A program made the translations under genes and the position numbers. The notes under the pieces were generated by a model. The model saw only the letters and a list, made by a program, of their open reading frames with translations, had not been told where the DNA came from and did no database searches. This document shows positions 819 to 24,486 of a DNA stretch of 24,486 nucleotides, piece by piece; within the stretch, counting starts at the first letter, position 1, and each line of letters opens with the position of its first letter. The stretch is taken from contig CAKRJM010000007.1 in NCBI GenBank assembly GCA_934351765.1, positions 1 through 24,486 on the forward strand. The letters are read 5' to 3'. Source of the DNA: an uncultured Lachnospiraceae bacterium (GTDB lineage Bacteria > Bacillota > Clostridia > Lachnospirales > Lachnospiraceae).

Positions 819-850
819 AACCAAAGAAAAAGAAAACGGAGGAATGGAAA

Positions 851-5655: not shown

Positions 5656-6339
5656 ATGAAAGAACAGGAGCAGACCGTATGGATGAACGGTGAGGGCGCC
5701 TGGGGCGGAAGAAGCGGCCCCGATTCCAATTATACGAAGGTGGTGGAGGAGTGGCGGAAAAAATTTTTGACCTGGGATCAGGAAGCAATCTGCAGAAAGC
5801 TTCACATCAATACGTATGATGAGAACGAGATCCTGCTTCGGTATTTCGGCGTCCTGCACCGAATCGACCGAAAAACCGGGGAGATCACCTGTCCGGAAAA
5901 GCCGGAATATCGTCCGGGCTTTGATGAATCCATGGCATTTTATAATTACTTTTATTATTCCAGAGAGGGAGCAGTCAATTCCGGAGAATGGGTGAATTTT
6001 CGGGATGTGAAGAGCGCCGGTGTTTTTGACCTGGCATTCCGGAATCAGGTGTTGATCCCGTTTGCGGAAAGCTTTTCCGGCCATTTGAAGGAGTTTCGGG
6101 AAGCAGGGGAAAAACAGGGATTTCTGCCGATTCCCTATGGGGATGCCGGATTTCAGGTACAGGCATTTCCCGGAGTCCCCATGCGGGTCGTGTTCTGGGA
6201 CGGAGATGAGGAGTTTCCGGCGAAGATCACGATCCTTTATGATAAAAATGTTACCGATTTCATTCACCCGGAGAATGTTGTGATGTTAGGGAGCGATTGT
6301 ATGCGGACGTTTCAGAGATATCTGACAGACAAAGAATGA
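5656..6339 (+). CDS. DUF3786 domain protein
   Basis: The 227-residue soluble protein matches the DUF3786 pattern seen in anaerobic Clostridia. Residues ~100-210 contain GEWVNFRDVKSAG, a GDAGFQVQAFPGVP segment and the hallmark VVFWDGDEEFPAKITILYD. No signal peptide or membrane segment is visible. The function of the family is not established as far as I know. An in-frame start at 5611 would overlap the endonuclease IV stop; the ATG at 5656, preceded by AAAAGGACGG, gives the more natural N-terminus. It probably forms an operon with nfo, which may reflect a repair or stress context but does not prove it. Confidence 0.8.
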   Translation: MKEQEQTVWMNGEGAWGGRSGPDSNYTKVVEEWRKKFLTWDQEAICRKLHINTYDENEILLRYFGVLHRIDRKTGEITCPEKPEYRPGFDESMAFYNYFYYSREGAVNSGEWVNFRDVKSAGVFDLAFRNQVLIPFAESFSGHLKEFREAGEKQGFLPIPYGDAGFQVQAFPGVPMRVVFWDGDEEFPAKITILYDKNVTDFIHPENVVMLGSDCMRTFQRYLTDKE

Positions 6340-6445
6340 GAGAACGTGTAACCCCATCGGAGCTGAAACTGTATGAAAAAACAGGAAACAGCTCCGGGAT
6401 TGAAGTAATATAAAACGGAAAGACAAGGGAAAAGGAGGAAGAGGG

Positions 6446-7381
6446 ATGAAACAGACAATGGTACAGATGATTGCAGGGAGAGATCATCTGGAGGAACGGC
6501 CGAAAAATGTCCTTCAGGGCGAAGTCGGCGGATTTCACACGGTTGTATGTCCGGATATTCCGGAGGCCGGAAGCTGGACGATTATCATGGATGCCAGGGA
6601 AGGAGCGCTTCCGCCGGCGGTGTCTGCCGAGGAATTTTTGAAGGAGCTTCGTGCGGGGATCCGGAAGATCAAAGCGGGACATTATGACGGAAAAAAGATT
6701 ACGATCGTCCTGCGGACGATGACAGGGGCTGCACAGAAAGTACGTGCGGTTCTGGATCAGACCGCAGAGTATTTCATGCGGAATGGTTATGTGACCTGCT
6801 GCGGCTGCTGTGGAAAAGAAGTTCCGGCTGCACTTACCAGTATCAATGGGGCCATGGATTTTATCTGCGAGGAATGTTACAGTAATATATGCAATAACCT
6901 GGAGCAGAACCGTCAGGAAATCAAGGCAAAAAAGGGAAATATGGTGACCGGTCTGGTGGGCGCCCTGTTCGGCGCCCTTCTCGGAGGTGCGGTATGGGTT
7001 CTGATCTATCAGCTGGGGTATATTGCCGGACTCGCCGGCGTGGTCGGTTCGGTCTGTGCGCTGAAGGGCTATGAGAAGTTTGGTGGAAAAATCAATATAG
7101 CAGGAATTATTATCAGTATTCTTATGACCATGGTAGCGCTGTATTTTGCTCAGAATATTTGTTATACGATCGAACTCAAAAAGGCACTGGAAGGGTACGA
7201 TATTACATTTTTTGAGGCATACCAGGCCCTTCCCGGTCTGATGCAGGAGTATGGCGAGATTGCCAGCGCTTACTGGACGGAGCTGACAGGGGGGCTCCTT
7301 ATGGCGGCTGCATCCAGTACCGCAATCGCATACGGTATGTATAAGAGCAAGAGCGGTGCTTACAAAACAGAAAGATATTAA
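6446..7381 (+). CDS. Unknown membrane protein with cysteine knuckle
   Basis: I do not recognise this 311-residue protein as a named family. Residues 1-115 form a soluble mixed alpha/beta region. Next comes a likely zinc-binding knuckle with C119xxC122 and C141xxC144 (extra cysteines at 118, 121, 148), and then hydrophobic segments near 166-188, 190-207, 216-238 and 280-299. The charge pattern suggests the soluble part and knuckle are cytoplasmic. The start at 6446 has a strong AGGAGGAAGAGGG site upstream. It lies 106 bases after the DUF3786 gene and is followed by a GC-rich hairpin. Confidence 0.75.
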   Translation: MKQTMVQMIAGRDHLEERPKNVLQGEVGGFHTVVCPDIPEAGSWTIIMDAREGALPPAVSAEEFLKELRAGIRKIKAGHYDGKKITIVLRTMTGAAQKVRAVLDQTAEYFMRNGYVTCCGCCGKEVPAALTSINGAMDFICEECYSNICNNLEQNRQEIKAKKGNMVTGLVGALFGALLGGAVWVLIYQLGYIAGLAGVVGSVCALKGYEKFGGKINIAGIIISILMTMVALYFAQNICYTIELKKALEGYDITFFEAYQALPGLMQEYGEIASAYWTELTGGLLMAAASSTAIAYGMYKSKSGAYKTERY

Positions 7382-7389
7382 ATTAACAT

Positions 7390-7426
7390 CCCCCACAGGG
7401 GCGCGGCGAACGCGCACCTGCAGGGG
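7390..7426. other. GC-rich imperfect hairpin without U-tract
   Basis: The sequence folds as CCCC/GGGG (7391-7394, 7423-7426), CAGG/CCTG (7396-7399, 7417-7420) and GCGCG/CGCGC (7401-7405, 7411-7415) around a GCGAA loop, with single-base bulges. No T-run follows on either strand, so a standard intrinsic terminator is not supported. It may protect the 3' end of the upstream mRNA or be a repeat element. Confidence 0.6.
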
Positions 7427-7521
7427 TTCAAAAGGGGAGGATAAGTATTTCTCTTTTCTTTGGTACTGGTTACAGTATGCCCGGAATGAGAAAACTTATA
7501 CTTCCTTTTTAAAAAAATAAA

Positions 7522-7530
7522 TGCTAAGAT
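7522..7530 (+). promoter_or_regulatory. Candidate extended -10 promoter for the Rpn nuclease
   Basis: TGCTAAGAT (TG, one base, TAAGAT) lies in an AT-rich stretch 42 bases before the TTG start. No convincing -35 element is present, so this is a moderate call. Confidence 0.4.
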
Positions 7531-7571
7531 AAAAGAAGATCATTTCCTGTTGGTACAGAAAAGAGGATAAT

Positions 7572-8582
7572 TTGACTAGAATCCATGCAGATGCGATCAG
7601 CGGAATGAAAGCACAGTATGATGAAGCAGCAAAACGGCTGCTGGCACAGAAATCATTGCTTGCACTGATCTTAAAGCATACGGCAGAGGAATTTATGGAA
7701 ATGACAGAAGAGGACATCGAAGCATGTATCGAGGGAAATCCTGAGATCGCTTCGGCAAGTGTGGATCCTGATTCGGAACAGAAAACGGAGATCACCGGGG
7801 AATCCACAGAAAGTACCATTCCCGGAGAGGGTAAGATAACTTACGATATCCGGTTTGCCGCATACAAACCGGGAGAAAAACAGAAGATAAAGCTGATTAT
7901 CAATATTGAGGCACAGAAAAAATGGAATCCCGGTTATGAACTTGTGACAAGGGGAATTTTTTACTGTGCTCGTATGATATCAGAACAGAAGCATAAAGAA
8001 TTTGAAAAGTCCGATTATGACCGGATCAAAAAAGTTTATTCCATCTGGATCTGCATGAACGGACCGGCTGGAATGGAGAGCGGAATTGCGTCTTATCGCT
8101 TTACTAAACGGGATTATCTGGGAATGTTGCAGGATAAGCATTGGGCATACGATAAGATGGAAGTGGTTCTTGTGGCATTAAATCAGAGTGGGGAAACAGA
8201 AAATCAACTGGTGAATGTTCTGCGGATTTTGTTTTCGGAGAATGCTGACGCGCAGAAAAAGGAGGCAATGTTGCGGGAACATGGAGTTCATGTTGATTCA
8301 GAGCGGAACAAGGAGGTGGAAACCATGTGTAATTTATCGGATTTGATTGAGGAACGTGCGACCGAAAGAGGAATGAAAAAAGGAATTGAAAAAGGGATTG
8401 AAAAAGGAAAATGTCAAACGATTCTGGAATTGATTCAGGCAGGCGTATTGACGGCGGAAGAGGGAGCAAGATGGTTAAATAAAACCGAAGAAGAGATGGA
8501 GGAACTGTGCCGGGAGGAGTATTCGGAATATCGGACGGATAATCATGCAGAGACAGTTTTAAATCAGTCGGAACAAAAGTAA
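7572..8582 (+). CDS. Rpn-family PD-(D/E)XK nuclease (transposase-like)
   Basis: The 336-residue protein belongs to the Rpn / PDDEXK_2 'putative transposase' family. The N-terminus has the family's helix (YDEAAKRLLAQKSLLALILK, then EEF), and residues ~88-160 hold the nuclease core with TYDIRF, INIEAQ and a YELVTRGIFYCARMI helix. The C-terminus is the typical charged tail ERATERGMKKGIEKGIEKG. Rpn proteins are DNA nucleases linked to recombination and phage defence. The start is TTG with AGAGGA at 7562-7567; an ATG at 7605 is an alternative. A strong internal start at 8325 is described separately. The gene has its own candidate promoter and terminator and stands alone, consistent with independent acquisition. 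Confidence 0.85.
   Translation: MTRIHADAISGMKAQYDEAAKRLLAQKSLLALILKHTAEEFMEMTEEDIEACIEGNPEIASASVDPDSEQKTEITGESTESTIPGEGKITYDIRFAAYKPGEKQKIKLIINIEAQKKWNPGYELVTRGIFYCARMISEQKHKEFEKSDYDRIKKVYSIWICMNGPAGMESGIASYRFTKRDYLGMLQDKHWAYDKMEVVLVALNQSGETENQLVNVLRILFSENADAQKKEAMLREHGVHVDSERNKEVETMCNLSDLIEERATERGMKKGIEKGIEKGKCQTILELIQAGVLTAEEGARWLNKTEEEMEELCREEYSEYRTDNHAETVLNQSEQK
8311..8319 (+). promoter_or_regulatory. Internal Shine-Dalgarno inside the Rpn gene
   Basis: AGGAGGTGG lies inside the Rpn coding region, preceded by AACA. It precedes an in-frame ATG at 8325 with good spacing and is at least as close to consensus as the site used by the full-length gene. It encodes the residues KEVE just before Met252. 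Confidence 0.75.
8325..8582 (+). CDS. Predicted intragenic small protein (RpnS-like C-terminal product)
   Basis: Translation from Met252 of the Rpn gene would give an 85-residue protein starting MCNLSDLIEERATERG, consisting only of the charged helical C-terminal domain and lacking the nuclease core. The ATG is in frame, six bases after a near-perfect AGGAGGTGG. Work on E. coli rpn genes has reported internal in-frame products of this kind that block the toxic full-length nuclease. From memory, the MCNLS segment is conserved in many Firmicutes homologues, which would fit a conserved start. That it is actually translated, and acts as an antitoxin here, is inference. Confidence 0.6.
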   Translation: MCNLSDLIEERATERGMKKGIEKGIEKGKCQTILELIQAGVLTAEEGARWLNKTEEEMEELCREEYSEYRTDNHAETVLNQSEQK

Positions 8583-8626
8583 TTGAAAACAGAATTATAA
8601 GCATGACAGGAACATGATCATAAAAA

Positions 8627-8664
8627 CCGGAACGGGGCGGAATCGGCCCCGGCTCTGGTTTTTT
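8627..8664 (+). terminator. Intrinsic terminator after the Rpn nuclease
   Basis: The stem CGGGGC / GCCCCG (8633-8638, 8646-8651) is extended by CCGG/CTGG pairs around a 7-base loop and is followed by six T residues (8659-8664). It separates the Rpn gene from the methyltransferase promoter. Confidence 0.85.
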
Positions 8665-8675
8665 CTTTCAATCTA

Positions 8676-8684
8676 TGGTATACT
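8676..8684 (+). promoter_or_regulatory. Extended -10 promoter for the methyltransferase
   Basis: TGGTATACT (TG, one base, TATACT) immediately follows the upstream terminator. It would start transcription near 8691. This rules against the long in-frame start at 8675 for the methyltransferase, since that ATG would lie inside the promoter. Confidence 0.55.
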
Positions 8685-8707
8685 CGTCCGGAATGAGAGG
8701 TGTTCTG

Positions 8708-9499
8708 ATGAAAATAGAAGAGGAGCGAGTGGCATACACCGGCTTTGCGGAGGTGTATGATCAGTTTATGGATAATGTTCCCTATGGGGAGTGGGCGGAA
8801 TATCTGGCAGGACTGTTAAAGGAATATGGCTGTGAGAACTGTCTTCTGGTGGATCTCGGCTGTGGAACGGGGAGCCTGACGGAGCTTTTGGACGATGCCG
8901 GATATGATATGATCGGGATTGATAATTCGGAGGAGATGCTGGATATCGCCATGGAAAAACGGGCGGTCTCCGGAAAGAATATCCTGTATCTGCTGCAGGA
9001 TATGCGGGCATTTGAACTTTACGGAACCGTGGGCGGGATCGTGAGCATCTGCGATTCCATGAATTACATTACCGAGTATGAGGATCTGGTGAAGGTGATG
9101 AAGCTGGTCAATAATTATCTGGATCCGGGCGGTGTCTTTATCTTTGATCTGAACACAGAGTATAAATATCAGGAGCTTTTAGGCGATCGCACGATTGCAG
9201 AAAACCGGGAGGAGGCCAGCTTTATCTGGGATAATTATTATGACCGGGATAGCCGGATCAATGAGTATGAGCTGGCAGTCTTTGTGAAAGCAGACGAAGA
9301 AGAGCCTCTGTATTACAAATATGAAGAAGTCCATTATCAGAAGGCATATCGCCTGGAGGAAATCCGGCGGGCGGCGAAAGAAGCCGGACTGATCTGGGAA
9401 GCCTGCTATGAGGCGTTCACGAAGGAAGAGCCGAAGGCAGACAGCGAGCGGGTTTATGTGGTATTGAGAGAACACGGAAAGAAGCCGGATCAGATTTGA
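8708..9499 (+). CDS. Class I SAM-dependent methyltransferase
   Basis: The 263-residue protein has the Rossmann-type methyltransferase motifs: motif I VDLGCGTGSLTELL near residue 50, the acidic end of strand two in MIGIDNSEEML, and a later FIFDLNTEYKY segment. The N-terminal YTGFAEVYDQFMDNVPYGEW is typical of a Firmicutes family usually annotated only as class I methyltransferase. The substrate is unknown. The start at 8708 follows GAGAGGTG and agrees with the promoter position. The Hsp33 gene starts 36 bases after its stop with no terminator between, so the two are likely co-transcribed. Confidence 0.88.
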   Translation: MKIEEERVAYTGFAEVYDQFMDNVPYGEWAEYLAGLLKEYGCENCLLVDLGCGTGSLTELLDDAGYDMIGIDNSEEMLDIAMEKRAVSGKNILYLLQDMRAFELYGTVGGIVSICDSMNYITEYEDLVKVMKLVNNYLDPGGVFIFDLNTEYKYQELLGDRTIAENREEASFIWDNYYDRDSRINEYELAVFVKADEEEPLYYKYEEVHYQKAYRLEEIRRAAKEAGLIWEACYEAFTKEEPKADSERVYVVLREHGKKPDQI

Positions 9500-9535
9500 G
9501 CAGGAACAGAAAAAACTCAGAAAGGAATTTGCTAT

Positions 9536-10444
9536 ATGGAAAATAAAATAATACAGGAAACAGCCGGTTATCAGGATTATATTGTCCGCGCTACGGCAGC
9601 AGACGCCAGGATCCGCGCCTTTGCGGCAACGACCAGAAGCCTGGTGGAGGAAGCGAGAGTGCGTCATAACACCAGCCCGGTGGCAACAGCGGCGCTTGGA
9701 CGGCTTCTGACGGCAGGAGCGATGATGGGAAGCACCATGAAGAATGACAGTGATGTACTGACGCTGCGGGTACAGGGGGATGGTCCCATCGGAAGCATTA
9801 CGGTGACTGCAGAAGCGAACGGTGACGTGAAAGGCTGTGTGGGCAATCCGGAGGTACTGCTCCATGCCAATGAAAAAGGAAAGCTGGACGTTGCAGGGGC
9901 TGTGGGACGCGGAACACTGACAGTTATTAAGGATATCGGCTTAAAAGAGCCTTATTCCGGACAGATCGAGCTGGTCAGCGGAGAACTGGCGGAGGATCTC
10001 ACATATTATTATGCGGTATCGGAGCAGGTGCCCTCCAGCGTGGCGCTGGGGGTACTTATGAACCGGGAAAATACGGTACGCCAGGCAGGCGGGTTTATCA
10101 TCCAGCTCATGCCGGGGGCAGAGGACGAGCTGATCGACCGGCTGGAAAAGCATCTGGCCGGGATCACATCGATCACGTCAATGCTGGATGCCGGAATGGC
10201 ACCGGAGGATATCCTGAAGGAGGTGCTGGGTGAGTTCGGACTGGAGATCATGGATCGGATTCCCACCCGGTTTTACTGTAACTGTTCAAAGGAGCGGGTG
10301 GAAAAGGCACTGATCAGTGTCGGAAAAAAAGAACTGGAGGATATGATCCGGGCAGGCAAGCCTGTTGAAGTGTCCTGTCATTTCTGCGAGGAGCATTATC
10401 ATTTTTCCGTGCGCGATTTGGAGAGAATTTTGGCGAATTTGTGA
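9536..10444 (+). CDS. hslO: Hsp33 redox-regulated chaperone
   Basis: The 302-residue protein is Hsp33, a cytoplasmic holdase chaperone activated when oxidants release zinc from its cysteine switch. The N-terminal substrate-binding domain shows GRLLTAGAMMGSTMK and the RVQGDGPIGSI segment. The C-terminal redox switch has the diagnostic C248-x-C250 and C281-x-x-C284, followed by HYHFS. Length and motif order are normal for the family. The ribosome binding site is AAAGGA with slightly long spacing. It follows a methyltransferase gene, probably in one transcript. Confidence 0.96.
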   Translation: MENKIIQETAGYQDYIVRATAADARIRAFAATTRSLVEEARVRHNTSPVATAALGRLLTAGAMMGSTMKNDSDVLTLRVQGDGPIGSITVTAEANGDVKGCVGNPEVLLHANEKGKLDVAGAVGRGTLTVIKDIGLKEPYSGQIELVSGELAEDLTYYYAVSEQVPSSVALGVLMNRENTVRQAGGFIIQLMPGAEDELIDRLEKHLAGITSITSMLDAGMAPEDILKEVLGEFGLEIMDRIPTRFYCNCSKERVEKALISVGKKELEDMIRAGKPVEVSCHFCEEHYHFSVRDLERILANL

Positions 10445-15296: not shown

Positions 15297-15331
15297 AGAG
15301 AATAAAAAACAGAGTATGAAAGGATCAGAGA

Positions 15332-15850
15332 ATGCTGACAGAAGTGACTTATGAACGGTACTTTAGAGCACATTATCAGGAGGCGTTGGGCTATGCATGC
15401 AAAAAGATCCCGGTATTCAGTGATGCAGAGGATCTGGTGATGGAAGCCTTTGCCTCCTGTTATCAGAAGCGGGAGCAGTTCAATGAGGAAAAGGCGTCGT
15501 TCCGTACCTGGTTTTTTGTTGTTCTCGGAAACAAGATCAAAAATTATTACCGGGATCACAGGGAACAGGAGGAGCTGGATGATTCTTATCAGTCACCGGG
15601 AGTCTTTGAGGATGAGATGGCGGAGGCTCAGTATATTTCTTCCATGCGAAGCAGGCTGGCAGAGGCCCTGAAGACCCTGAATGAGACCCAGCAGAAAATT
15701 CTGATCTTAAAATATTTTAAAGGATTTGAAAACGGGGAGATTGCAGACCGCCTCGGGATCAGGCCGGGAAATGTGCGCATCCAGGCCATGAGGGCGCTGG
15801 GAAAGCTTCGGGATTATTGTGAAGAACATAACATCAGATGGGAGAAATAG
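15332..15850 (+). CDS. ECF-like sigma-70 family RNA polymerase sigma factor
   Basis: The 172-residue protein has only sigma regions 2 and 4. Region 2 (about residues 10-70) includes DAEDLVMEAFASCYQ and SFRTWFFVVLGNKIKNYYRDH. Region 4 (about 108-165) includes LNETQQKILILKYFKGFENGEIADRLGI followed by the recognition helix. It should direct RNA polymerase to a specific promoter set. Its stop is two bases before the HlyD-like gene, so it leads an operon with the peptide exporter and probably controls that locus. No anti-sigma factor lies next to it, so how it is held inactive is unclear. Confidence 0.9.
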   Translation: MLTEVTYERYFRAHYQEALGYACKKIPVFSDAEDLVMEAFASCYQKREQFNEEKASFRTWFFVVLGNKIKNYYRDHREQEELDDSYQSPGVFEDEMAEAQYISSMRSRLAEALKTLNETQQKILILKYFKGFENGEIADRLGIRPGNVRIQAMRALGKLRDYCEEHNIRWEK

Positions 15851-15852
15851 CA

Positions 15853-16689
15853 ATGGCTCAGATATACAGAAAAACTTCGTTGGAAAGGCTGTCCAGCCCG
15901 GAACAGCTGGATACCGAGCTTCGGATCACTTCGCCCTTATCCTGGCTGGCGCTTCTCGGAGCAGCGCTTGTGTTTGCGGCGGTGATTGTCTGGAGCATAT
16001 TCGGAACACTGCCTGAGACGCTCCAGGCAAGCGGGATGGTGGTATCTGAAACCAATCTGGGAGTGATCTGCGCGGAGAATTACGGAACCGTGAGCAGGCT
16101 TGAAAAGAAAGTGGGAGACCAGGTGCAGGCCGGCGAGGTGACGGCTGTGCTTAAAGGAGGAAACGGGACAGAATACCAGGTCCTGGCAGAGCAGAGCGGT
16201 CAGGTGACGGCGGTTCTGGTGGAAGCCGGGGAGGAGATTTATCCGGGAAAGGAGCTGCTCCGGTATACGCCACAGGCGGAAAGTGCCCAGGCAGCGGTAT
16301 TTTATGTGCCGACGGTCAAAGCCGGCCAGTTAAAGAAGGATATGAAGGTGCTGATTTCACCCGAGTGGGTGGATGCACAGAAATATGGACATATGGAGGC
16401 ATGGATCGAAGAGGTAGGAGCCTATCCGGCAGAGAATCCGAATCTCTGGTATGTTCTGGGAAAGGATAATCAGGTGGCAGAGCAGTTCCTGGCAGAGGAA
16501 CCTGTGACGGCAGTGGTATGCCGCCTGCGGACAGACGCTGCTTCTCAGAACGGTTATTACTGGAGCAATGAAAACGGAAGGAAGCTGACGCTTTCAAACG
16601 GAACCTTTGTGTCAGGAAAGATCATTATCAGTGAAAATGCACCGATCACAAAGCTGATTGGAAGCATGAAGGATAAGCTGGAGGATTAA
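15853..16689 (+). CDS. NHLP-type bacteriocin secretion protein (HlyD-like)
   Basis: The 278-residue protein is a periplasmic-adaptor-like secretion subunit. It has a short cytoplasmic N-terminus, one membrane segment at about residues 30-52, then biotinyl/lipoyl-type beta domains (GTVSRLEKKVGDQVQAGEVT and GQVTAVLVEAGEEIYPGKEL). This matches the HlyD-like component of NHLP peptide export systems. An in-frame ATG at 15838 lies inside the sigma factor gene without a ribosome binding site. The ATG at 15853 is preceded by GGGAGA and was chosen. The gene is packed between the sigma factor and the first ABC transporter with two-base gaps. Confidence 0.85.
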   Translation: MAQIYRKTSLERLSSPEQLDTELRITSPLSWLALLGAALVFAAVIVWSIFGTLPETLQASGMVVSETNLGVICAENYGTVSRLEKKVGDQVQAGEVTAVLKGGNGTEYQVLAEQSGQVTAVLVEAGEEIYPGKELLRYTPQAESAQAAVFYVPTVKAGQLKKDMKVLISPEWVDAQKYGHMEAWIEEVGAYPAENPNLWYVLGKDNQVAEQFLAEEPVTAVVCRLRTDAASQNGYYWSNENGRKLTLSNGTFVSGKIIISENAPITKLIGSMKDKLED

Positions 16690-16691
16690 AC

Positions 16692-18839
16692 ATGGGAGGA
16701 ATGTATGCAAAAACACCGACGGTTTATCAGCTTGAGGCAACAGAATGCGGTGCGGCTTCCCTGTCGATGATCCTTGCGTATTACGGAAAGCATCTTCCGC
16801 TGGAACAGCTTCGGATCGAGACCGGTGTTTCCCGGGATGGATGCAGCGCCGGAAATATCATGCGGGCGGCAAAAAAGTATGGCATGGAATGTCATGGCTA
16901 CCGAAAGGAGCCGGATGCGCTCCGGAAACAGAAAATGCCCTGTATCATTCACTGGAATTTTAATCACTTTGTGGTGCTTGAGGGCTTTAAGGGAAGGCAT
17001 GCCTATATCAATGATCCGGCTGTGGGAAGGCGGAAGCTGACGCCGGAGGAACTGGATGAATCCTTTACAGGGATTGTTCTGACCTTTCAGCCGGGAGAAG
17101 GGTTTGAAAAACAGAAAAAGACAGATACCTGGAAGTCCTTTATCGGACAGCGGCTGGAGGGACAGTATGGTGTCCTTGGAAAGCTTCTGGCGGTGGGACT
17201 GCTTTTAAGCTTTCCGGGAATTCTGCTCCCGGTGCTGTCGCAGGTGTTTCTGGATGAAATCCTGATCGCGGGAAATCAAAGCTGGTTTACAAAGCTTCTC
17301 TTATTTATGGCGGCAGCTGTGTTTATGCAGATCTGCCTTTCTCTCTATCGGGACCGGCTGCTGGCAAGGCTTCAGAAAAAGATGGTACTGCTGTCTGCGA
17401 ATTCGTTTCTCGGAAGAATGTTCCGTCTGCCCATCAGCTTTTTTGATCAGCGGTATGTGGGTGATCTTTCCGGCCGTGCGGCTAATAATGCCAGTGTCAG
17501 TGATTTTCTTGCAGGAGATCTTGCGGAGACGATCCTGAATCTGCTGATCGCGATGTTTTATCTGATCCTGCTGCTGTTATACAGCCCGATCCTGACGCTG
17601 ATAGCTGTCCTTTCGGTAGGACTGGATCTGGCAGTGGTAAAGATGACCTCCGGAATGATCGCGGATTCTGGCATGAAGCTCTCTCAGGATGCCGGAAAAC
17701 TGAGCGGCGCAGTCTGTGCGGGGCTGAGTATCACCAGTACCCTGAAGGCATCCGGCGCGGAGAATGAGTATGTGGGACGGATTCTTGGATATCATGCAAA
17801 GGTGGAGCAGATGAACCAGAAGCTCGGCCGGAATCAGCAGATCCTCGATGCTGTTCCGGATACCGTAAAGATGTGCACGGAGGTGCTTCTTCTGCTGACC
17901 GGCGGATCCCTTGTGATTGACGGGAAGATGACCATCGGTATGCTGGCGGCGTTTTTATCCTTATTTGGTTCATTCCATGAGCCGGTCGAAAAGCTGGCCG
18001 GTTTCATGAAAAAGATCCAGACGGCAAGGGCAGATATCAGCCGTGTGGAGGATATTATGAATTATCCGGAGGATGAACGGTTTTCCGGTGAAGCGGAAAA
18101 GAAAACCTTAAAGACAAAGCTGGAGGGTCAGGTTGAGTTAAGGGACATCTCCTTCGGCTACAGTACCTTAAAGCCGCCGATCGTGTCAGGCTTTGACTGT
18201 CGGATTTCGTGTGGCTCTTCCATCGCCTTCGTGGGCTCTTCCGGCTGCGGAAAGTCTACGGTTTCCAAGGTGATCAGCGGACTTTATAAGCCATGGACCG
18301 GCCAGGTCCTGTTTGATGGAATTCCCATGGAGCAGATCCCGGCGGAGGTTTTAAATGCCAGTGTATCCACCGTCAGCCAGAGTATTACCCTGTTTTCAGA
18401 CTCCATCCGAAACAATCTGACCATGTGGAATGACAGCATTTCGGAATCCGACATGATCGCGGCGGCAAAGGATGCCTGTATCCATGATGTGATCTCCCAG
18501 AAGCCGGGAGCTTATGATTTCCGTCTGGCGGAGGGAGCCTCTAATCTGTCCGGCGGACAGAGACAGCGGCTGGAAATCGCCCGCGCTCTAGTGACAAATC
18601 CGACGGTTCTGATCATGGATGAGGCAACCAGTGCGCTGGATCCGATCGTAGAAAAGCAGATCATCGACAACATCAAGCGGCGCGGCTGTACCTGTATCAT
18701 CATTGCACACCGGCTCAGCGCGATCCGTGACTGTGATCAGATTATTGTCATGGAGGAGGGACAGATTGTCCAGCGTGGAACCCACCGGGAGCTGGCGGCC
18801 GCGGAGGGACATTACCAGACCTTTATCCAGAACTTATAG
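16692..18839 (+). CDS. C39-peptidase ABC transporter (NHLP type, leader-cleaving exporter)
   Basis: The 715-residue protein is a peptidase-containing exporter. The N-terminal C39 domain has the catalytic cysteine at residue 19 (ATECGAASLSMILAYYG), His92 (NHFVVLEG) and Asp108 (NDPA). A six-helix membrane domain follows at about 160-440, then an ATPase with Walker A GSSGCGKST (515-523), signature LSGGQRQR (619-626) and Walker B LIMDEATSALD. It should cut precursor peptides after a double glycine and export the core. The two GG precursors lie downstream in the same locus. It starts two bases after the HlyD-like gene with GGAGGA upstream. Confidence 0.93.
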   Translation: MGGMYAKTPTVYQLEATECGAASLSMILAYYGKHLPLEQLRIETGVSRDGCSAGNIMRAAKKYGMECHGYRKEPDALRKQKMPCIIHWNFNHFVVLEGFKGRHAYINDPAVGRRKLTPEELDESFTGIVLTFQPGEGFEKQKKTDTWKSFIGQRLEGQYGVLGKLLAVGLLLSFPGILLPVLSQVFLDEILIAGNQSWFTKLLLFMAAAVFMQICLSLYRDRLLARLQKKMVLLSANSFLGRMFRLPISFFDQRYVGDLSGRAANNASVSDFLAGDLAETILNLLIAMFYLILLLLYSPILTLIAVLSVGLDLAVVKMTSGMIADSGMKLSQDAGKLSGAVCAGLSITSTLKASGAENEYVGRILGYHAKVEQMNQKLGRNQQILDAVPDTVKMCTEVLLLLTGGSLVIDGKMTIGMLAAFLSLFGSFHEPVEKLAGFMKKIQTARADISRVEDIMNYPEDERFSGEAEKKTLKTKLEGQVELRDISFGYSTLKPPIVSGFDCRISCGSSIAFVGSSGCGKSTVSKVISGLYKPWTGQVLFDGIPMEQIPAEVLNASVSTVSQSITLFSDSIRNNLTMWNDSISESDMIAAAKDACIHDVISQKPGAYDFRLAEGASNLSGGQRQRLEIARALVTNPTVLIMDEATSALDPIVEKQIIDNIKRRGCTCIIIAHRLSAIRDCDQIIVMEEGQIVQRGTHRELAAAEGHYQTFIQNL

Positions 18840-18861
18840 ACAGCGAACAGGGAGACATAGT

Positions 18862-21414
18862 ATGGAAGACAAGAAGACGATTTCTTTACAGGGCGGAGAA
18901 TACTTCCTGACAGAAGAGATGACCAGTGCGTACCGGATTCTGGGCGGTACCGCATTTCTTTATATTGTTCCGCTTCGGAAAAAAGAGATCGGAAGACGTT
19001 CCTTTTTATATGAAATAAAAGCAGGAGAGGTGATCCCCGGATTCTGTCATCAGGACATGGACTACTGCCAGTGGCGGTTCTGTATTGTGCCGGTAGAGGC
19101 GGTTTCGGTGGAGGTCATTCCCTTCGGCAGCACCAGAGTCCTGCGAGAGCGTTTTGTCAGGAAAGCGGATCTGAAAAACTATGGAAAAGAAGGCTTTGAA
19201 GGCTGCATTACTGACCGCTATCGGAAAAACATTGTGGTGGAGGATGGTTTTATCAGGAGAAGCCAGAAACGGCGGATCGATGCGGCGGAGCGTACAAGGA
19301 ATCTGATCCGTGGGGCATTTCGGAAAGAGGCGTCTGTACCGGAAACGGAACGCACGGGAAACCGGCTGTATGATGTCATGACAGTGCTCTGTGCGGAACG
19401 GGAGATTTCCATTGCACCATATGAAAAGGTGAAGGAGGTCTGCGGAGAAGACGGCAGTATCGCGGAAATTGCGAGGCTGTCTCATTTTGCATACCGGCGG
19501 GTCCTTCTGACCGAAGGCTGGGAGCGGATGGACGGCGGAGCGCTCCTTGTTTTTAATGAAAAGAAAAAGCCGTATGTATGTCTGCCCAAAAAGCATGGCG
19601 GTTATCTGCTTTATGATACAGAAAAAGAAACATTAACTCCGGTGACGAAAGCGCTGGCGGCTGCATTGGAGCCGGAGGCGTATGTGATTTACCGGCCGCT
19701 GCCAGAGCAGGCGGGACGGCAGGAGCTGATCCGGTTCTGCAAAAAAAGCATCCGAAGGAATGATATGATCCTGCTGTTTGTGTTAACGGTGGTGACGGCG
19801 CTCATTGAGCTGCTGCTCCCGATCATCACCTCCTCTCTGTATGATGTCTATATTCCGTTGGGAGCGAAAACAATCCTGCTTCAGATCGGATGCCTGATGG
19901 GAGCATTTCTGATTGCAGATATTCTGTTCGGCATTGTGAAAAATCTTGTAAATTTCCGGATCATCAGCCGGATGTCCTGCGAGCTTCAGACTGCGGCTTA
20001 TGACCGTCTGTTTAATCTTCCTGAAAGCTTTTACCGGGCTTATGAATCGGCAGATCTGGCACAGAGAGTCATGGGGGCAGGTGTACTGGCGGGAACCATC
20101 GGTTCGGCGGTTCTGATGACTGCGGTCAGCCTGGTGTTTCTGGGAATCTGTCTGGGAAAGATGATCGGTTATTCCGGGAAACTGGCCGGGGCCGGAATCG
20201 TTATGACTGTCATTTACGGGCTTTTTTATTATGGGATCTCCGTGCGGGCATTGCGTTATAAAAAGAAGGTGGTGGAGCTGGAGGGAAAAACCGGTTCCAT
20301 GATGTATCAGTTTTTAAACGGGATCGCAAAGCTCCGGATCACGGGAGTGGAGGACCGGGCTCTATATGAATATATGAAGCCCTATGTAAGCCTGCGAAAC
20401 TGTGAGGAACGGAAGCGGAGGATCCTGAGTCTTGGAAAGACCATGAATCTGGTCTCCGGCGCAGTGTTTGCCATGATCCTTTATCTGGTGGTCATGAAAG
20501 GAAGCATAGCGGTCAGTCTCGGATCGTTTCTCGGGTTTCAGACGGTGTTCGGAACCTTTACGGCATCGGCCCTTCAGCTTGTTCAGGCATTGATCCAGGT
20601 GCGCAGTGCAAAGCCGGAGCTTGAACGGTTAGAGCCGGTGTTTAAGAACCGGCCGGAATTTGAGGAAGCCAGTGAGCTTCCCGGCGAACTGAGCGGTGCG
20701 GTGGAGGTCAATAATGTATCGTTCCGTTACAGTGCGGATGCTCCGGTGGTTTTATCGGATCTTTCTCTGAACATCCGGGCCGGGGAATATATCGGGATCG
20801 TCGGAACCTCCGGATGCGGCAAATCAACCCTGTTAAAGCTGCTTCTTGGCTTTGAAAAGCCGGTTTCCGGGAAGATTTATTATGACAATAAGGATATTGA
20901 CAGTCTGGATAAGCGGGAGCTGAGGAGAAAAATGGGGGTGGTGCTTCAGGACGGAAAGCTGATTTCCGGAAGCATTTATGAAAATATCACCATCATAGCT
21001 CCGGAAGCTTCGATAAAGGATGTGGAGCGTGTTGTGGAGGCAGTTGGATTAAAGAAGGATATTGCGGCCATGCCCATGGGACTCCACACGATGCTCAGCG
21101 AGGACTGCGGAACCATTTCCGGAGGTCAGCAGCAGAGGATCCTCATTGCCCGGGCAATCATCTCCAACCCGAAGATCCTGCTGTTCGATGAAGCCACAAG
21201 CGCGCTGGATAATGTAACCCAGCGTATGATCTGTGATACGCTGGAGGCTATGGATTCTACCAGAATTGTGATTGCACATCGTCTCAGCACGGTGATCCGC
21301 TGTGACCGGATTCTGGTGCTGGACAGGGGAAGGATCGCAGAACAGGGCTCCTATGAGGAGCTGATGGAGAAAAAGGGCCTGTTTTATGAACTGGCAAACC
21401 GCCAGCTTTCATGA
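18862..21414 (+). CDS. NHLP-type ABC transporter without peptidase domain
   Basis: The 850-residue protein carries a long N-terminal region of about 290 residues with no C39 catalytic motif. It is followed by an exporter membrane domain (about 295-590) and an ATPase with Walker A GTSGCGKST (648-656), ISGGQQQR and LLFDEATSALD. NHLP loci typically pair such a permease/ATPase with the peptidase transporter, so the two may work as a heterodimer or in sequence. An open frame extends back to 18703 within the previous gene, but the ATG at 18862 has GGGAG upstream and gives the right N-terminus. The function of the N-terminal region is not evident. Confidence 0.88.
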   Translation: MEDKKTISLQGGEYFLTEEMTSAYRILGGTAFLYIVPLRKKEIGRRSFLYEIKAGEVIPGFCHQDMDYCQWRFCIVPVEAVSVEVIPFGSTRVLRERFVRKADLKNYGKEGFEGCITDRYRKNIVVEDGFIRRSQKRRIDAAERTRNLIRGAFRKEASVPETERTGNRLYDVMTVLCAEREISIAPYEKVKEVCGEDGSIAEIARLSHFAYRRVLLTEGWERMDGGALLVFNEKKKPYVCLPKKHGGYLLYDTEKETLTPVTKALAAALEPEAYVIYRPLPEQAGRQELIRFCKKSIRRNDMILLFVLTVVTALIELLLPIITSSLYDVYIPLGAKTILLQIGCLMGAFLIADILFGIVKNLVNFRIISRMSCELQTAAYDRLFNLPESFYRAYESADLAQRVMGAGVLAGTIGSAVLMTAVSLVFLGICLGKMIGYSGKLAGAGIVMTVIYGLFYYGISVRALRYKKKVVELEGKTGSMMYQFLNGIAKLRITGVEDRALYEYMKPYVSLRNCEERKRRILSLGKTMNLVSGAVFAMILYLVVMKGSIAVSLGSFLGFQTVFGTFTASALQLVQALIQVRSAKPELERLEPVFKNRPEFEEASELPGELSGAVEVNNVSFRYSADAPVVLSDLSLNIRAGEYIGIVGTSGCGKSTLLKLLLGFEKPVSGKIYYDNKDIDSLDKRELRRKMGVVLQDGKLISGSIYENITIIAPEASIKDVERVVEAVGLKKDIAAMPMGLHTMLSEDCGTISGGQQQRILIARAIISNPKILLFDEATSALDNVTQRMICDTLEAMDSTRIVIAHRLSTVIRCDRILVLDRGRIAEQGSYEELMEKKGLFYELANRQLS

Positions 21415-21487
21415 ATCCGGTCTGGCAGCATAACGCGTTTTGGCCGTGCCGGCATTCTCCGGTAAATTTTTTAAACTTTTAAAAAAA

Positions 21488-21518
21488 ATCCGGAAAAGCC
21501 TGTAACAGATTTCCGGAT
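21488..21518. promoter_or_regulatory. 9-bp perfect inverted repeat upstream of the precursor genes
   Basis: ATCCGGAAA (21488-21496) and TTTCCGGAT (21510-21518) flank a 13-base loop. On the plus strand it is preceded by eight A residues but has no following T-run. On the minus strand it would read as a hairpin followed by eight T residues. It lies 61 bases before the first precursor gene, so it may be an operator, a processing site or a terminator for antisense transcription. Confidence 0.55.
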
Positions 21519-21578
21519 CATGTGTATAACTAAGTGACAGCGGGAGCTGATAAAAATGAAAAAGCGGAGGAATGGATC

Positions 21579-21881
21579 ATGAATGAGAATAAGTTAATGG
21601 AAGAGTTAAAAAAGGTAACCGTAAAGGAAGAGCAGGTAAAGCGTCTGGTAGAAGCAGAATCTCTGGAAGCATTCCGGCAGATCCTTGCAGAGTGCGGAGC
21701 AGAAATCGGTGAGGAAGAAGCAAAGGGCCTTTACGAGGGCTTGAAGGAGCAGAAGGACGGAGAGCTTTCGCTGGACAGTCTGGATCAGGTATCCGGAGGA
21801 ATCGCACCGGCAGTAGTAGCCATCGGAGCCGGAGTAGCATTTTTATACGGCTTCTACAGAGGAATGCGAAAAAGATGCTGA
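21579..21881 (+). CDS. Double-glycine precursor peptide 1 (bacteriocin-like)
   Basis: The 100-residue precursor has a long acidic, helical leader (residues 1-74) ending ELSLDSLDQVSGG, a canonical double-glycine cleavage site of the Nif11/NHLP leader type. The 26-residue core (75-100) is hydrophobic at first (IAPAVVAIGAGVAFLYG) and ends in a cationic tail, RGMRKRC. It contains no Ser, Thr, Asp or Glu, one terminal Cys, and a GxxxG pair (core positions 17 and 21). This suggests an unmodified membrane-active peptide. GCGGAGG (21564-21570) marks the ATG at 21579 over an in-frame ATG at 21534. It should be cleaved and exported by the C39 transporter encoded upstream. Confidence 0.85.
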   Translation: MNENKLMEELKKVTVKEEQVKRLVEAESLEAFRQILAECGAEIGEEEAKGLYEGLKEQKDGELSLDSLDQVSGGIAPAVVAIGAGVAFLYGFYRGMRKRC

Positions 21882-22016
21882 TTCCTGAGGAAAAGGGAGC
21901 ATTGCAGGCGGAAGGAAGAAAAACGCGCCGAACCATCGGGCAGCATAGATAAAGGAAAAAAATCAGAGCAGAAACAGAAGATCAAAACAAAACATAGAAA
22001 TCAGGAGGAGCATGAC

Positions 22017-22343
22017 ATGACAGAAATCAGTGTAAAGGTAATGGAAGAAGCATTTCAGGATCAGGAATTTGAGGAAAAGGTATTAAACTGTGAGAGTAAG
22101 GCAGAGTTAAAGGAGCTGTTTGCATCCAAGGGAATTGAGATGAGTGATGAAGAGATCCGACAGATGGTGGAGCATGTAAACAGCCTTCTGGAGAATGGGG
22201 ATGAGCTTTCTGAGGACAGCCTGGATCAGGTGTCCGGCGGAATCGGTATCGTAGCAGCCGGAGCGATCATTGGAGGCGCGTATGTTGCAGGCCGTTTATA
22301 TGCAAGATATGCAAAAGGTAAAATGGGATGGTGCGGACGGTAA
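22017..22343 (+). CDS. Double-glycine precursor peptide 2 (bacteriocin-like)
   Basis: The 108-residue precursor has a Nif11-like leader (1-75) ending DELSEDSLDQVSGG. The 33-residue core (76-108) begins IGIVAAGAIIGGAYVAG and continues with a cationic stretch ending GWCGR. The core has no Ser, Thr, Asp or Glu, a single Cys at core position 31, and G7xxxG11. It parallels peptide 1 in layout: a small-residue helix, then a basic tail with one Cys. The ATG at 22017 is eight bases after AGGAGG. Another ATG at 22012 is out of frame and stops after two codons. It is 135 bases from precursor 1 and probably in the same transcript. Confidence 0.85.
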   Translation: MTEISVKVMEEAFQDQEFEEKVLNCESKAELKELFASKGIEMSDEEIRQMVEHVNSLLENGDELSEDSLDQVSGGIGIVAAGAIIGGAYVAGRLYARYAKGKMGWCGR

Positions 22344-22378
22344 AGGGAGCACGTTTCCACAGAAAAACGGAAGAACAG

Positions 22379-22405
22379 GCGGCTTATAAAAGCCGTCTTC
22401 TTCTG
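22379..22405 (+). terminator. Weak terminator or attenuator after precursor 2
   Basis: CGGCTT (22380-22385) and AAGCCG (22390-22395) form a 6-bp stem (7 with a G-T pair) around ATAA, followed by TCTTCTTCT. The short stem and mixed pyrimidine tract suggest partial termination, which would leave the precursor mRNA more abundant than the downstream genes. Confidence 0.45.
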
Positions 22406-22446
22406 ATATGTGCGCAAAAATGCCAGAAAGAAAAGGAATGTTGGAA

Positions 22447-22644
22447 ATGGATATGGAAAAGGTTTTGAAGCTGGCGGCAAAAACACAGGAGTTTGCACCA
22501 AATGACGAACTGACAGAACTGGTGGAGGCGGTGGATGATGAGCTTTCTGAGGAGGATCTGGATCTTGTAGCGGCGGCATCAGCGGCGCCGGATTATGAAA
22601 AATTTCTGGATTATATGAAAACGCATCAGACGGGCAAGAGCTGA
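22447..22644 (+). CDS. Leader-like small peptide lacking the double glycine
   Basis: I do not recognise a named family for this 65-residue peptide. It ends its acidic N-terminal part with DELSEEDLDLVAAA (31-44), clearly related to the DELSEDSLDQVSGG of precursor 2 but with AAA replacing the glycines. The following 21 residues are hydrophilic, quite unlike the two bacteriocin-like cores. Several in-frame ATGs exist (22408, 22420, 22438, 22447, 22453). I prefer 22447 because AAAAGGA (22431-22437) is nine bases upstream. It may be a signalling peptide, a leader-binding partner or a decayed precursor. Confidence 0.65.
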   Translation: MDMEKVLKLAAKTQEFAPNDELTELVEAVDDELSEEDLDLVAAASAAPDYEKFLDYMKTHQTGKS

Positions 22645-22681
22645 AGCCGGGCGGAAAACTTGCAGAAGAGTACAGGAGTTT

Positions 22682-23053
22682 ATGATGATAACAAGAGAAA
22701 TGGTTGATGGGGTTCTGGAGATCCTTCTGGATGGAACCAGAGTGCTGTGCATCCGGGAACAGATGAAGGATGATATTTTTTATATGGAAGCGGAGGGAGA
22801 GATCCGCAATGAGGTTGCTCATGAGTTTGAAGATGAGCTTATGGCAGCCGTCTCCGTATGCAGAAAAATCCGGCTGGATCTGTCAAAGATCACATATCTG
22901 GCCAGTGGTGCGTTACGGAGCCTTTTGTCAGTGCAGCAGATCATTGATGAACAGGAAGGTGCTGAGATGATATTGGTTCATGTCTCAGAGCCGGTCATGG
23001 AGGCATTAAAGGAATCCGGATTTGATGAGATCCTGTTTATTGAAGAGGATTGA
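22682..23053 (+). CDS. STAS-domain protein (anti-sigma factor antagonist-like)
   Basis: The 123-residue soluble protein has a STAS fold in its second part: a strand IRLDLSKITYLASGALRSLL (63-82), then a helix, a strand (AEMILVHV) and a final helix (MEALKESGF). Ser75, in the ASGAL turn, aligns with the serine phosphorylated in SpoIIAA-type antagonists, so partner switching is possible. Residues 1-35 are an extra N-terminal segment. ATG codons at 22682 and 22685 are both possible after AGGAG. No kinase or SpoIIE-type phosphatase is in the window. It sits between the leader-like peptide and the TIR receptor-like gene. Confidence 0.8.
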   Translation: MMITREMVDGVLEILLDGTRVLCIREQMKDDIFYMEAEGEIRNEVAHEFEDELMAAVSVCRKIRLDLSKITYLASGALRSLLSVQQIIDEQEGAEMILVHVSEPVMEALKESGFDEILFIEED

Positions 23054-23096
23054 TGAAACGTGACAGAAAACAAACAGATGGAAACGAGGTAGAGCT

Positions 23097-24486
23097 GTGA
23101 GACGATGCTCCGTAAAGCCCTATGAAGGGCAGGAAGCTTATATTTTTATCAGCTATTGTCATAAAGACAGAGCAAGCGTTTTTCCGATCATTGAACAGCT
23201 GGCACGGGATGGTTACCGGGTCTGGTATGACGAGGGAATTGATCCGGGATCGGAGTGGCCGGAAATCATTGCCAGTCACTTAAACGGAAGTGCTGCCTGT
23301 GTAGCGTTCATTACGGAAAATGCAGTAAACTCCCATAATTGTAAACGGGAGATCAATTTCGCATTATTAAAGAAAAAGCCGTTTATTTCAGTGATCCTGG
23401 AGCCGGTTCAGATGTCCATGGGCATGGAAATGCAGCTGGCGGCGACCCAGGCGATTTTTAAGTATACGCTGGAATCGGAAAAAGAATTCTATAAGAAGCT
23501 GTATGCGGCAAGGATGCTGGAATCATCCATGGGCCTGCCGGATGCGCAGATCGAGGTTTCCCGTCCGGAGGATTATGTAGCGGAGGAGGAAAGCCTGTTT
23601 GAGGAGATACGTGAACCGAGAGACAGCTTCAGTGATAAGTGGTTCCGCAGTGAACCGGAGACAGCGGATGCGAATGCCGACAGTCAGGCGAAGGAAACAG
23701 AACGCCAGATGGAGCGGAAACTGAAAGCGGCGGAAGAGGCACGCTGTCAGGCAGAGGCTGCGCGGCGGGAGGCGGAAGAAAAGCTGAAGGCGGCGGAGGA
23801 GAAGCACCGCCAGGCGGAAGAAGAAGCAAAGCGTCAGGCGGAAGAGGCTGCACAGCGGGAAGCAGAAGCAAAACGTCAGGCAGAAGAGGCCGCCCGTCGG
23901 GAAGCAGAAGCACAGCGTCTGGCAGAGCAGAAAGCGGCAGAAGAAGCGCGCCGCCGGGAAGCAGAAGCAAAACGTCAGGCAGAGCAGAAAGCGGCGGAAG
24001 AAGCGCGCCGTCGGGAAGCAGAAGCAAAGCGTCAGGCAGAGCAGAAAGCGGCAGAAGAAGCGCGTCGTCGGGAAGCAGAAGCAAAGCGCCAGGCAGAAGA
24101 AGCCTTGCGTCTGGCAGAGAAGCAGCGGAAGGCAGAGCCGGAACGCCATCAGACACCGGAGAAAAAAGAGAAGAGGGGCATCTGGCTCATACCGATTGTG
24201 CTGATCGCGGTCATTTATGTATGCCTGAATGGAATTCCAAAGCTGTTTTTTGGGGGGAAGATGGAAATCAGCGGACAGAAGGTGGAGAAGGATGCTGAGA
24301 ATCTGTATCTGTCGAATAAAATGCTGACGGCAAAGGACATGAAGGCCCTTTCTTCCATGAAGGAACTGGAGGCAGTCTATCTGACAGACTGTACGCTTGA
24401 TGATGAAGCAGCAGCTGCCATCGGGACGAATGCAGAGGGACTGAGGATCCTTTGCATGGAAAACTGCACGGGAGTGGAAAACTATC
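23097..24486 (+). CDS. TIR / coiled-coil / transmembrane / LRR-like protein (partial, runs off the end)
   Basis: The first 463 residues are present. Residues 13-123 are a TIR domain (YIFISYCHKD, RVWYDEGIDPGSEW, and C82xxE85, where E85 matches the NADase glutamate). A spacer leads to a long charged coiled coil (about 197-355) with three near-identical 19-residue repeats. A basic stretch (EKKEKR) precedes one membrane segment (362-380), and three degenerate leucine-rich-repeat-like units follow, at 400-410, 424-434 and 449-459. The charge pattern puts TIR and coiled coil inside the cell and the repeats outside. The GTG start follows GAGGT; an in-frame stop at 23061 excludes a longer N-terminus. 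The 3' end is missing. Confidence 0.85.
   Translation, partial: MRRCSVKPYEGQEAYIFISYCHKDRASVFPIIEQLARDGYRVWYDEGIDPGSEWPEIIASHLNGSAACVAFITENAVNSHNCKREINFALLKKKPFISVILEPVQMSMGMEMQLAATQAIFKYTLESEKEFYKKLYAARMLESSMGLPDAQIEVSRPEDYVAEEESLFEEIREPRDSFSDKWFRSEPETADANADSQAKETERQMERKLKAAEEARCQAEAARREAEEKLKAAEEKHRQAEEEAKRQAEEAAQREAEAKRQAEEAARREAEAQRLAEQKAAEEARRREAEAKRQAEQKAAEEARRREAEAKRQAEQKAAEEARRREAEAKRQAEEALRLAEKQRKAEPERHQTPEKKEKRGIWLIPIVLIAVIYVCLNGIPKLFFGGKMEISGQKVEKDAENLYLSNKMLTAKDMKALSSMKELEAVYLTDCTLDDEAAAAIGTNAEGLRILCMENCTGVENY
23913..24083 (+). repeat. Three 57-bp tandem repeats inside the TIR protein coiled coil
   Basis: The units 23913-23969, 23970-24026 and 24027-24083 each encode a 19-residue block of the form KRQAEQKAAEEARRREAEA. 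Units two and three differ at only three bases, all synonymous. Unit one differs at its first residues (QRL for KRQ). More diverged versions of the same block lie upstream. Confidence 0.9.

Follow-up and report, generated by a model that had tools for sequence, protein, structure and literature searches.

Animal Toll and Toll-like receptors combine a leucine-rich repeat (LRR) ectodomain, a single membrane span and a cytoplasmic TIR domain. Bacterial TIR enzymes that consume nicotinamide adenine dinucleotide (NAD), such as Thoeris ThsB, SPARTA TIR-APAZ and Cat1 in defence and also AbTir, are soluble and answer internal cues. Our subject is a TIR gene at the 3′ end of a 24,486-nt stretch of DNA from an uncultured Lachnospiraceae bacterium (contig CAKRJM010000007.1 of assembly GCA_934351765.1; this whole stretch is referred to as the window throughout). 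Its product has the predicted TIR fold of these NADases and four residues that align with the Cat1 site; in contrast to them, however, it carries a membrane span and a predicted outside LRR part, and its gene sits in a peptide-export operon. The Cat1 cue is a cyclic oligoadenylate, according to the available portion of the source (PMC12162218). Judging from sequences and structure models, we consider the window protein to be a receptor-like TIR protein of an NHLP peptide-export operon, wherein binding outside the cell would result in clustering and, in turn, NAD cleavage inside, and we give this reading a probability of about one half.

How far does the resemblance to known systems reach? The preliminary description of this locus had called the protein "Toll-receptor-like". 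Its parts and its topology, the latter predicted from hydropathy and charge, agree with this label, which does not extend to descent: the TIR domain lies N-terminal and the LRR part C-terminal of the span, reversing the order of the animal receptors, a long coiled coil is interposed, the LRRs are internalin-like, and we see no sign of a common descent of the architecture. Since the order is reversed, the label refers to parts and topology only. With TIR_2 over its cut-off, the protein belongs with the TIR domain proteins; by domain order, it is not a Toll-like receptor. PASTA-type Ser/Thr kinases such as PrkC and StkP likewise link a signalling protein to an outside sensor by a span, albeit with a kinase rather than a TIR domain inside. 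Internalins are secreted or wall-bound; internalin A is similar in LRR sequence and fold and has no TIR domain, whereas the window protein begins with a TIR domain instead of a secretion signal and has its hydrophobic peak at residues 362–380. As in the NHLP/Nif11 export systems (Haft and others 2010, PMC2887384), three export proteins over their cut-offs are found together with double-glycine precursors. In a term search of that paper's main text, kinase came up once, whereas neither TIR nor STAS, forkhead or sigma factor came up at all. Compared to the systems it describes, the STAS-TIR part is an addition here. In a literature search that covered titles and abstract openings, with most subscription papers outside its coverage, neither a bacterial TIR-span-LRR protein nor a TIR gene in an NHLP operon was found described.

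The arrangement of TIR domain, coiled coil, span and LRRs, as seen in sequences and models, is established and shared by many proteins. In the window, the open reading frame (ORF; 23097–24485, + strand) starts with GTG, encodes 463 residues and is open at the 3′ end. About half of the protein is thus contained; judged by the complete variant P0143 (926 aa), 436 more residues lie past the window end. Residues 358–463, used as a query, retrieved P0001 (97% identity) and P0002 (96%). A profile built from four TIR-span-LRR proteins gave 794 matches at E ≤ 1e-20 among 7997 candidates scored, and each of the best 120 of these contained both TIR_2 and LRR families. Outside the coil, eleven of the best 120 (865–933 aa) hardly differ from the window protein, and by this near identity they appear to be its strain variants; one of them, P0162, is without the first portion of the TIR domain. 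A further variant, the 799-aa P0002, deviates at both ends. An origin of the gene as a chimera or assembly artefact was ruled out by these eleven proteins, which have the same TIR domain, span and LRR part at differing coil lengths.

On their own, the three repeats provide weak support for LRRs, as Pfam detects no LRR family in the truncated window ORF at E ≤ 0.001. However, P0143 matches window residues 351–463 identically and contains LRR_4 (Pfam, 2.5e-35) as well as a predicted LRR solenoid, which identifies the three visible repeats as LRRs. Their starts at residues 402, 426 and 451 reproduce the spacing of 24–25 residues described before. An LRR fold in the complete protein had been a further expectation, and the P0143 model predicts with high confidence an LRR solenoid with a C-terminal cap, of the internalin-A type, along with a long helix (residues 198–371). 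Internalin A is the best Foldseek match (1.2e-19) and also an LRR sequence match (4.8e-37).

What connects the two ends of the protein? The preliminary description had proposed a coiled coil of about 160 residues followed by one hydrophobic span after a basic stretch. The coil itself is present, yet shorter in the window (146 residues, 205–350), and its length ranges from 112 to 181 aa across the window protein and 12 variants, indicating that the spacer is a variable-number repeat. The span was located as described: the hydrophobic peak at residues 362–380 (mean Kyte-Doolittle hydropathy 2.5) directly follows the motif PEKKEKRG. Exactly one span is predicted in 119 of the best 120 of the 794 matches, a set that includes the 11 window variants, and two in the remaining one; Lys and Arg residues are more frequent in the 15 residues before the span than in the 15 after it in 115 of the 120 (equal in four, fewer in one). 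The positive-inside rule assigns the basic side of a span to the cytoplasm and, from hydropathy and charge only, we infer that the TIR domain lies inside the cell and the LRR part outside. Internalins are surface binding proteins and, as some of them are among the closest solved LRR relatives, the LRR part might instead be an adhesin or surface anchor, with the TIR domain acting as a regulator without ligand gating. We regard this as most improbable, given that one-span anchoring to a TIR domain is kept in all but one of those best 120 matches, and that other ectodomain types occupy the same position in the operon (see below).

Is the TIR domain an enzyme? C82 and E85 were found where the preliminary description had placed them, in a domain scoring 75.3 bits with TIR_2 (cut-off 28; E = 7.8e-21). 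Together with S19, D45 and S79, they are invariant in all 61 rows of a TIR alignment (a hand-chosen subset of 241 collected proteins), and the C..E motif is present in 120/120 of the best TIR-span-LRR matches. When a profile of the NHLP-linked TIRs was used for searching, Cat1 was the only PDB chain found (1.8e-5), and in the alignment S19, D45, S79 and E85 correspond to Cat1 S7, D33, S68 and E74. As far as the available portion of the Cat1 paper goes, these four line the NADase site, and the D33A, S68A and E74A mutants are defective in vivo (PMC12162218). A TIR fold with a nucleotide pocket, as anticipated for this protein, is in keeping with the data: the fold is predicted, and the four residues aligned to the NADase site are conserved. 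Together, the conserved site residues favour the TIR domain being an enzyme, although they fall short of proof.

Peptide export genes had been noted next to the TIR gene, and directly 5′ of it in the window we find an NHLP export operon, whose genes, all in one direction, encode an extracytoplasmic function (ECF)-type sigma factor, three NHLP export proteins, two double-glycine precursors (pepA and pepB), a short peptide (pepC), a STAS-domain protein and the TIR protein. The HlyD-type protein and both ABC transporter subunits (ABC1 and ABC2) exceed their NCBIfam cut-offs. None of the precursors exceeds an NHLP/Nif11-type cut-off, with pepB falling under it and pepA passing as a class IIb bacteriocin only. 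Homologues beside peptide export genes, to be expected if this arrangement matters, do exist. Five of the 56 loci from a genome scan (L001–L004 and L037) had STAS directly 5′ of TIR plus both ABC genes, and genome searches added five more of the same gene order (L080–L084), giving ten sister loci, NHLP or NHLP-like. STAS directly precedes TIR in 10/10 of them (the STAS alignment was made without L037), and five contain an HlyD match (L001–L003, L080, L084). NHLP cut-offs are passed by ABC2 in L001–L003 and by both ABCs in L080. In L004, L081–L084 and L037, the ABC proteins stay under the cut-off with the NHLP model still being the best family, for which we use the term NHLP-like; this check left out ABC2 of L081–L083 and ABC1 of L037.

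To which TIR proteins does the operon belong? At E ≤ 1e-60 to a profile of the window's TIR branch, 14 genomes were found, ten of them with the operon. In eight genomes (G001–G004, G355, G539, G447, G501), the match reached the end of the profile (position 179, through the FSDxWF part), and all eight have the operon; as G001–G004 supplied profile rows, the independent full-profile cases number 4/4. Five weaker profile matches (L085–L089) had no NHLP genes. A rule by which a strong TIR match means an NHLP operon is false, given that four of the 14 genomes lack it in the available DNA (19 further genomes were scored). The operon is therefore linked to the TIR branch that carries the FSDxWF extension rather than to such TIRs at large, and the ten loci support a link of this branch to STAS and NHLP-type export. 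Within the motif, F178 and D180 are invariant in 21/21 rows. An FSDxWF-like motif occurs in 105 of the 120 closest TIR relatives listed and in 14 of 119 TIR-span-LRR matches inspected, 11 of the 14 being window variants.

The short peptide pepC travels with this module. Relatives were found in eight of the ten loci (L001–L004, L080–L083), seven by tblastn and the one in L080 by its ORF, and the family is conserved in its body and varies in a short tail. In the window, L002, L004 and L080–L083, pepC lies directly before STAS; an FHA (forkhead-associated) gene intervenes in L001, and genes for a PP2C-type phosphatase and a kinase in L003. We regard pepC as a candidate signal or accessory leader.

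What would such a TIR protein sense, and with whom would it work? FHA domains are found in or near the TIR protein in 6/10 loci (L001, L003, L004, L081, L082, L084), Ser/Thr kinases in four (L003, L082, L083, L084) and PP2C in four (L003, L004, L081, L082), with at least one of the three in 7/10; these counts stem from probe searches, with Pfam on example loci and the L003 FHA detected by tblastn. In L084, the next gene encodes a PASTA kinase. The C-terminal part of the TIR protein differs from locus to locus: FHA in L001, L003 and L084, a short tail after the span in L004, L081 and L082, a BspA-type LRR in L080 (and, by reading, in L002), an RCC1-like part in L083, SPOR in L037 and the internalin-type LRR in the window. 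In L083 (1620–6462, minus strand), a TIR gene and a Ser/Thr kinase gene lie side by side and both encode RCC1-like ectodomains, doubled in the TIR protein; the kinase ectodomain aligns with each of the two TIR halves (33% and 36%). Similarly, the kinase ectodomain of L003 matches the TIR ectodomain of L011 (31%, 5.9e-15). That TIR proteins and kinases have ectodomain types in common is, at the level of sequence, the strongest argument for a sensor role, and three proteins that combine FSDKWF, LRRs and the PASTA family (P0168, P0173, P0175) point in the same direction.

Put together as a receptor, the protein might operate as follows. Something outside, perhaps a peptide of its own or a neighbouring locus, would bind and cluster the LRR parts, upon which the coiled coil would bring the TIR domains together. 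By analogy with Cat1, whose NADase site forms between stacked TIR domains (PMC12162218), the clustered domains could then cleave NAD. The TIR product or the loss of NAD, together with the STAS protein, may tune the operon or halt growth, and in sister loci the Ser/Thr kinase, PP2C and FHA partners may share in this. Ligand binding by the LRR part, gating of the TIR domain and NAD consumption are steps that we infer from sequence and analogy. A nucleotide-binding N-terminal domain of ABC2, conceived as a reader of the TIR product, was considered and dropped: this region matched no Pfam family at E ≤ 1 in the window and L003, and had one weak unrelated match in L004.

A number of observations weigh against the receptor reading. 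The Cat1 match is weak, and Cat1 H8, N9 and N10 are unmatched (here Y20, the variable position 21 and H22), with N10A reported as likewise defective in the available portion of the Cat1 paper (PMC12162218). Cat1 K121 and Y122, which the same portion assigns to the partner TIR, fall outside the alignment. The full-model pTM (predicted template modelling score) of 0.60 leaves the relative placement of the domains unsure. Export genes pass the tested NHLP cut-offs in only four of the ten loci (L001–L003, L080). Close TIRs in L007 (G621), L005 (G008), L008 (G1476) and L009 (G006) have no NHLP genes nearby in the available DNA, nor do the other TIR-span-LRR genes with readable surroundings (L006, L009, L010). 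By probes, L002, L037 and L080 contain no kinase, PP2C or FHA (the L037 contig is short), nor can one be seen in the window, where the sequence stops within the TIR gene. On a TIR tree (see below), rows with the NHLP label show no clear clustering (9 changes; 65/500 shuffles as low), although context is lacking for 46 of the 62 rows. Among the 120 closest TIR relatives listed, 115 end in an FHA domain and 116 have no span. Lastly, as far as can be taken from the accessible part of PMC7075850, the glutamate is frequent in receptor TIRs too and need not accompany reported activity.

In an alternative reading, the TIR domain serves as a non-enzymatic clustering domain and the protein as a scaffold at the membrane: by assembling STAS, kinase, phosphatase and FHA partners, it would exert control over both sigma factor and export operon. 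Apart from the FHA ends of the closest relatives and a glutamate that is no proof of catalysis, the regulatory neighbours in the sister loci would suit such a scaffold, with STAS in all ten. Nevertheless, the four Cat1-site residues are invariant in 61/61 rows, seemingly beyond the need of a pure scaffold, and we consider this alternative rather unlikely.

Could the receptor reading be replaced by an immune one? As a membrane-anchored alarm against phages or competitors, the LRR part would respond to a foreign peptide, to damage or to the adsorption of a phage, upon which the TIR domain would kill or arrest the cell by NAD loss, with the operon making the peptides that are acted against or with. 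ThsB models match weakly, P0143 at 3.9e-4 and the TIR-FHA protein of L084 at 2.8e-6, and Pfam ThsB_TIR scores 23.7 bits in the latter (cut-off 21.2). In Thoeris, a ThsA-type effector stands beside the ThsB-type TIR; the window stops inside the TIR gene, before any 3′ neighbour. TIR NADases work in defence, as exemplified by Cat1 in the available part of its description (PMC12162218). TIR relatives outside NHLP operons, moreover, lie near proteins with ryanodine receptor (RyR) domains, and phage RyR-domain proteins degrade signals of the cyclic ADP-ribose (cADPR) type, as stated in the available portion of a preprint (PMC13232231). On the other side, the best PADLOC match of P0143 reaches 1.1e-4 and the window gene sits in an export operon, leaving the alarm a quite unlikely explanation, behind both the scaffold and the receptor.

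RyR-type proteins occur near the TIR-span-LRR genes of L006, L009 and L010 (Table 1). The second membrane proteins of L006 and L009 match no Pfam family at E ≤ 1, and the L028 protein matches RyR only at 0.48. In a set of 15 genomes partly chosen for the RyR trait, five have one RyR match each, at a distance to the TIR gene of ~11 kb in G005, 3.5 kb in G006 and 2.3 kb in G594, and on other contigs in G007 and G621; no match was found in the eight genomes of the set with NHLP-type operons, nor in G008 and G617. This RyR-TIR link rests on few loci, and RyR/EHxRW membrane proteins near TIR genes outside NHLP operons might possibly constitute, with the TIR proteins, a pair of messenger and channel. 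The most far-reaching version of the receptor reading would see true transmembrane TIR receptors here: exchangeable sensors (LRR, BspA, RCC1-like, SPOR) on a membrane TIR enzyme, paired with Ser/Thr kinases of the same sensor type and watching the operon's exported peptides, with the TIR product gating RyR channels in sister loci, a counterpart of Toll plus cADPR signalling. We put this forward tentatively, as a possibility well short of even odds.

Some gene sets seen in passing belong beside these. In two genomes (L106, 101–7055, and L107, 1–7516), a small RyR-domain protein follows a gene set that is alike by eye and encodes a protein of ~600 aa, a PP2C-like protein and one of ~1400–1500 aa. 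In L006 (5248–7900), the TIR-span-LRR gene is accompanied by genes for another TIR protein and a NUDIX protein. By reading only, TIR domains also occur in proteins resembling FtsK-type translocases and the tubulin type (L036, 9941–11956; L014, 9260–10360; L045, 9266–10849).

How did the LRR part come to this TIR branch? A TIR tree was built from 62 hand-chosen rows (43 of the 241 collected proteins, the window and 18 loci), of which 46 have no known gene context. The window TIR lies nearest to TIR-FHA rows, P0004 being the most similar at 77% identity; a supported clade (96/92), to which it does not belong, contains 23 of the 29 LRR rows. A single LRR clade is not rejected by the approximately unbiased (AU) test (p = 0.131), the bootstrap is unsettled and six rows are long-branched. 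By these sequences, an exchange of LRR parts among TIR lineages is likely rather than demonstrated. In genome surveys, members were few: 2/394 genomes at E ≤ 1e-50 in the order of G001, 0/392 at E ≤ 1e-55 in the order of G616, and, at E ≤ 1e-40 and with weak matches included, 9/161, 5/71 and 7/100 (the last set overlapping the 161). Searches with the TIR-span-LRR profile recovered no genome besides those at their centre (1/248, 1/196 and 1/23); with so few members, there is no strong neighbourhood count for TIR-span-LRR genes. A plasmid or phage origin of the gene was considered and set aside. Megablast of positions 15300–24486, with 72,556 plasmid records as target, yielded a single match of 43 bases; with the TIR part as tblastn query, no plasmid was matched and only an unannotated phage record came up (H2, 39.5% identity); and of two stretches matched in a viral-contig scan with P0143, neither is a relative.

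Table 1. Features of the window and of RyR-type neighbours at other loci
Sequence	Feature	Position	Strand	Remark
Window	ECF-type sigma factor, 5′ of export genes	15332..15850	+	TIGR02937, 107 bits, cut-off 42.9
Window	NHLP secretion protein (HlyD-like)	15838..16689	+	TIGR03794, 160.5 bits, cut-off 156.2
Window	NHLP export ABC transporter subunit 1 with C39 peptidase	16692..18839	+	TIGR03796, 983.1 bits, cut-off 853.3; Pfam Peptidase_C39
Window	NHLP export ABC transporter subunit 2	18862..21414	+	TIGR03797, 763.8 bits, cut-off 709.4; ORF open from 18703, 18862 likely start
Window	pepA, double-glycine precursor, class IIb bacteriocin-like	21534..21881	+	TIGR03949, 22.6 bits, cut-off 21.5
Window	pepB, double-glycine precursor, Nif11-type leader	22017..22343	+	27.4 bits, under TIGR03798 cut-off 32.3
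Window	pepC, short leader-like peptide without GG site	22408..22644	+	conserved family
Window	STAS-domain protein	22682..23053	+	Pfam STAS 1.3e-10; 43 bases before TIR gene
Window	TIR - coiled coil - membrane span - LRR protein gene	23097..24486	+	cut by window end
Window	TIR domain, Pfam TIR_2, residues 16–104	23142..23408	+	
Window	FSDKWF motif, residues 178–183, after TIR domain	23628..23645	+	typical of this TIR branch
Window	Coiled coil, residues 205–350	23709..24146	+	length-variable
Window	57-bp tandem repeat inside coiled coil	23879..24097	+	3.8 copies
Window	Basic stretch PEKKEKRG before span	24156..24179	+	positive-inside side
Window	Single membrane span, residues 362–380	24180..24236	+	
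Window	LRR ectodomain start, three repeats visible	24258..24486	+	runs past window
L009	Ion channel with RyR and second membrane protein with EHxRW signature	6302–9762		RyR 28.7 bits, cut-off 27.4
L028	Relative of L009's second membrane protein	8013–9917		3.7e-98
L010	55-residue match to L009's second membrane protein	9024–9188		at contig end
L006	Membrane protein with EHxRW	7897–9882		
L086	RyR protein	324–1706		RyR 2.7e-11; C-terminal part of its TIR gene of a different kind

What does this mean for TIR biology? If the TIR domain is gated from outside, bacterial TIR signalling would be a membrane receptor system too, beyond an internal phage alarm, and outside LRR sensing leading to a TIR output would exist in bacteria, in a domain order opposite to that of animals. 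The operon and its sister loci name partners (STAS, kinase, PP2C, FHA) and candidate ligands (pepA, pepB, pepC) for such a receptor, and the RyR neighbours in other loci represent a candidate reader of a TIR-made messenger.
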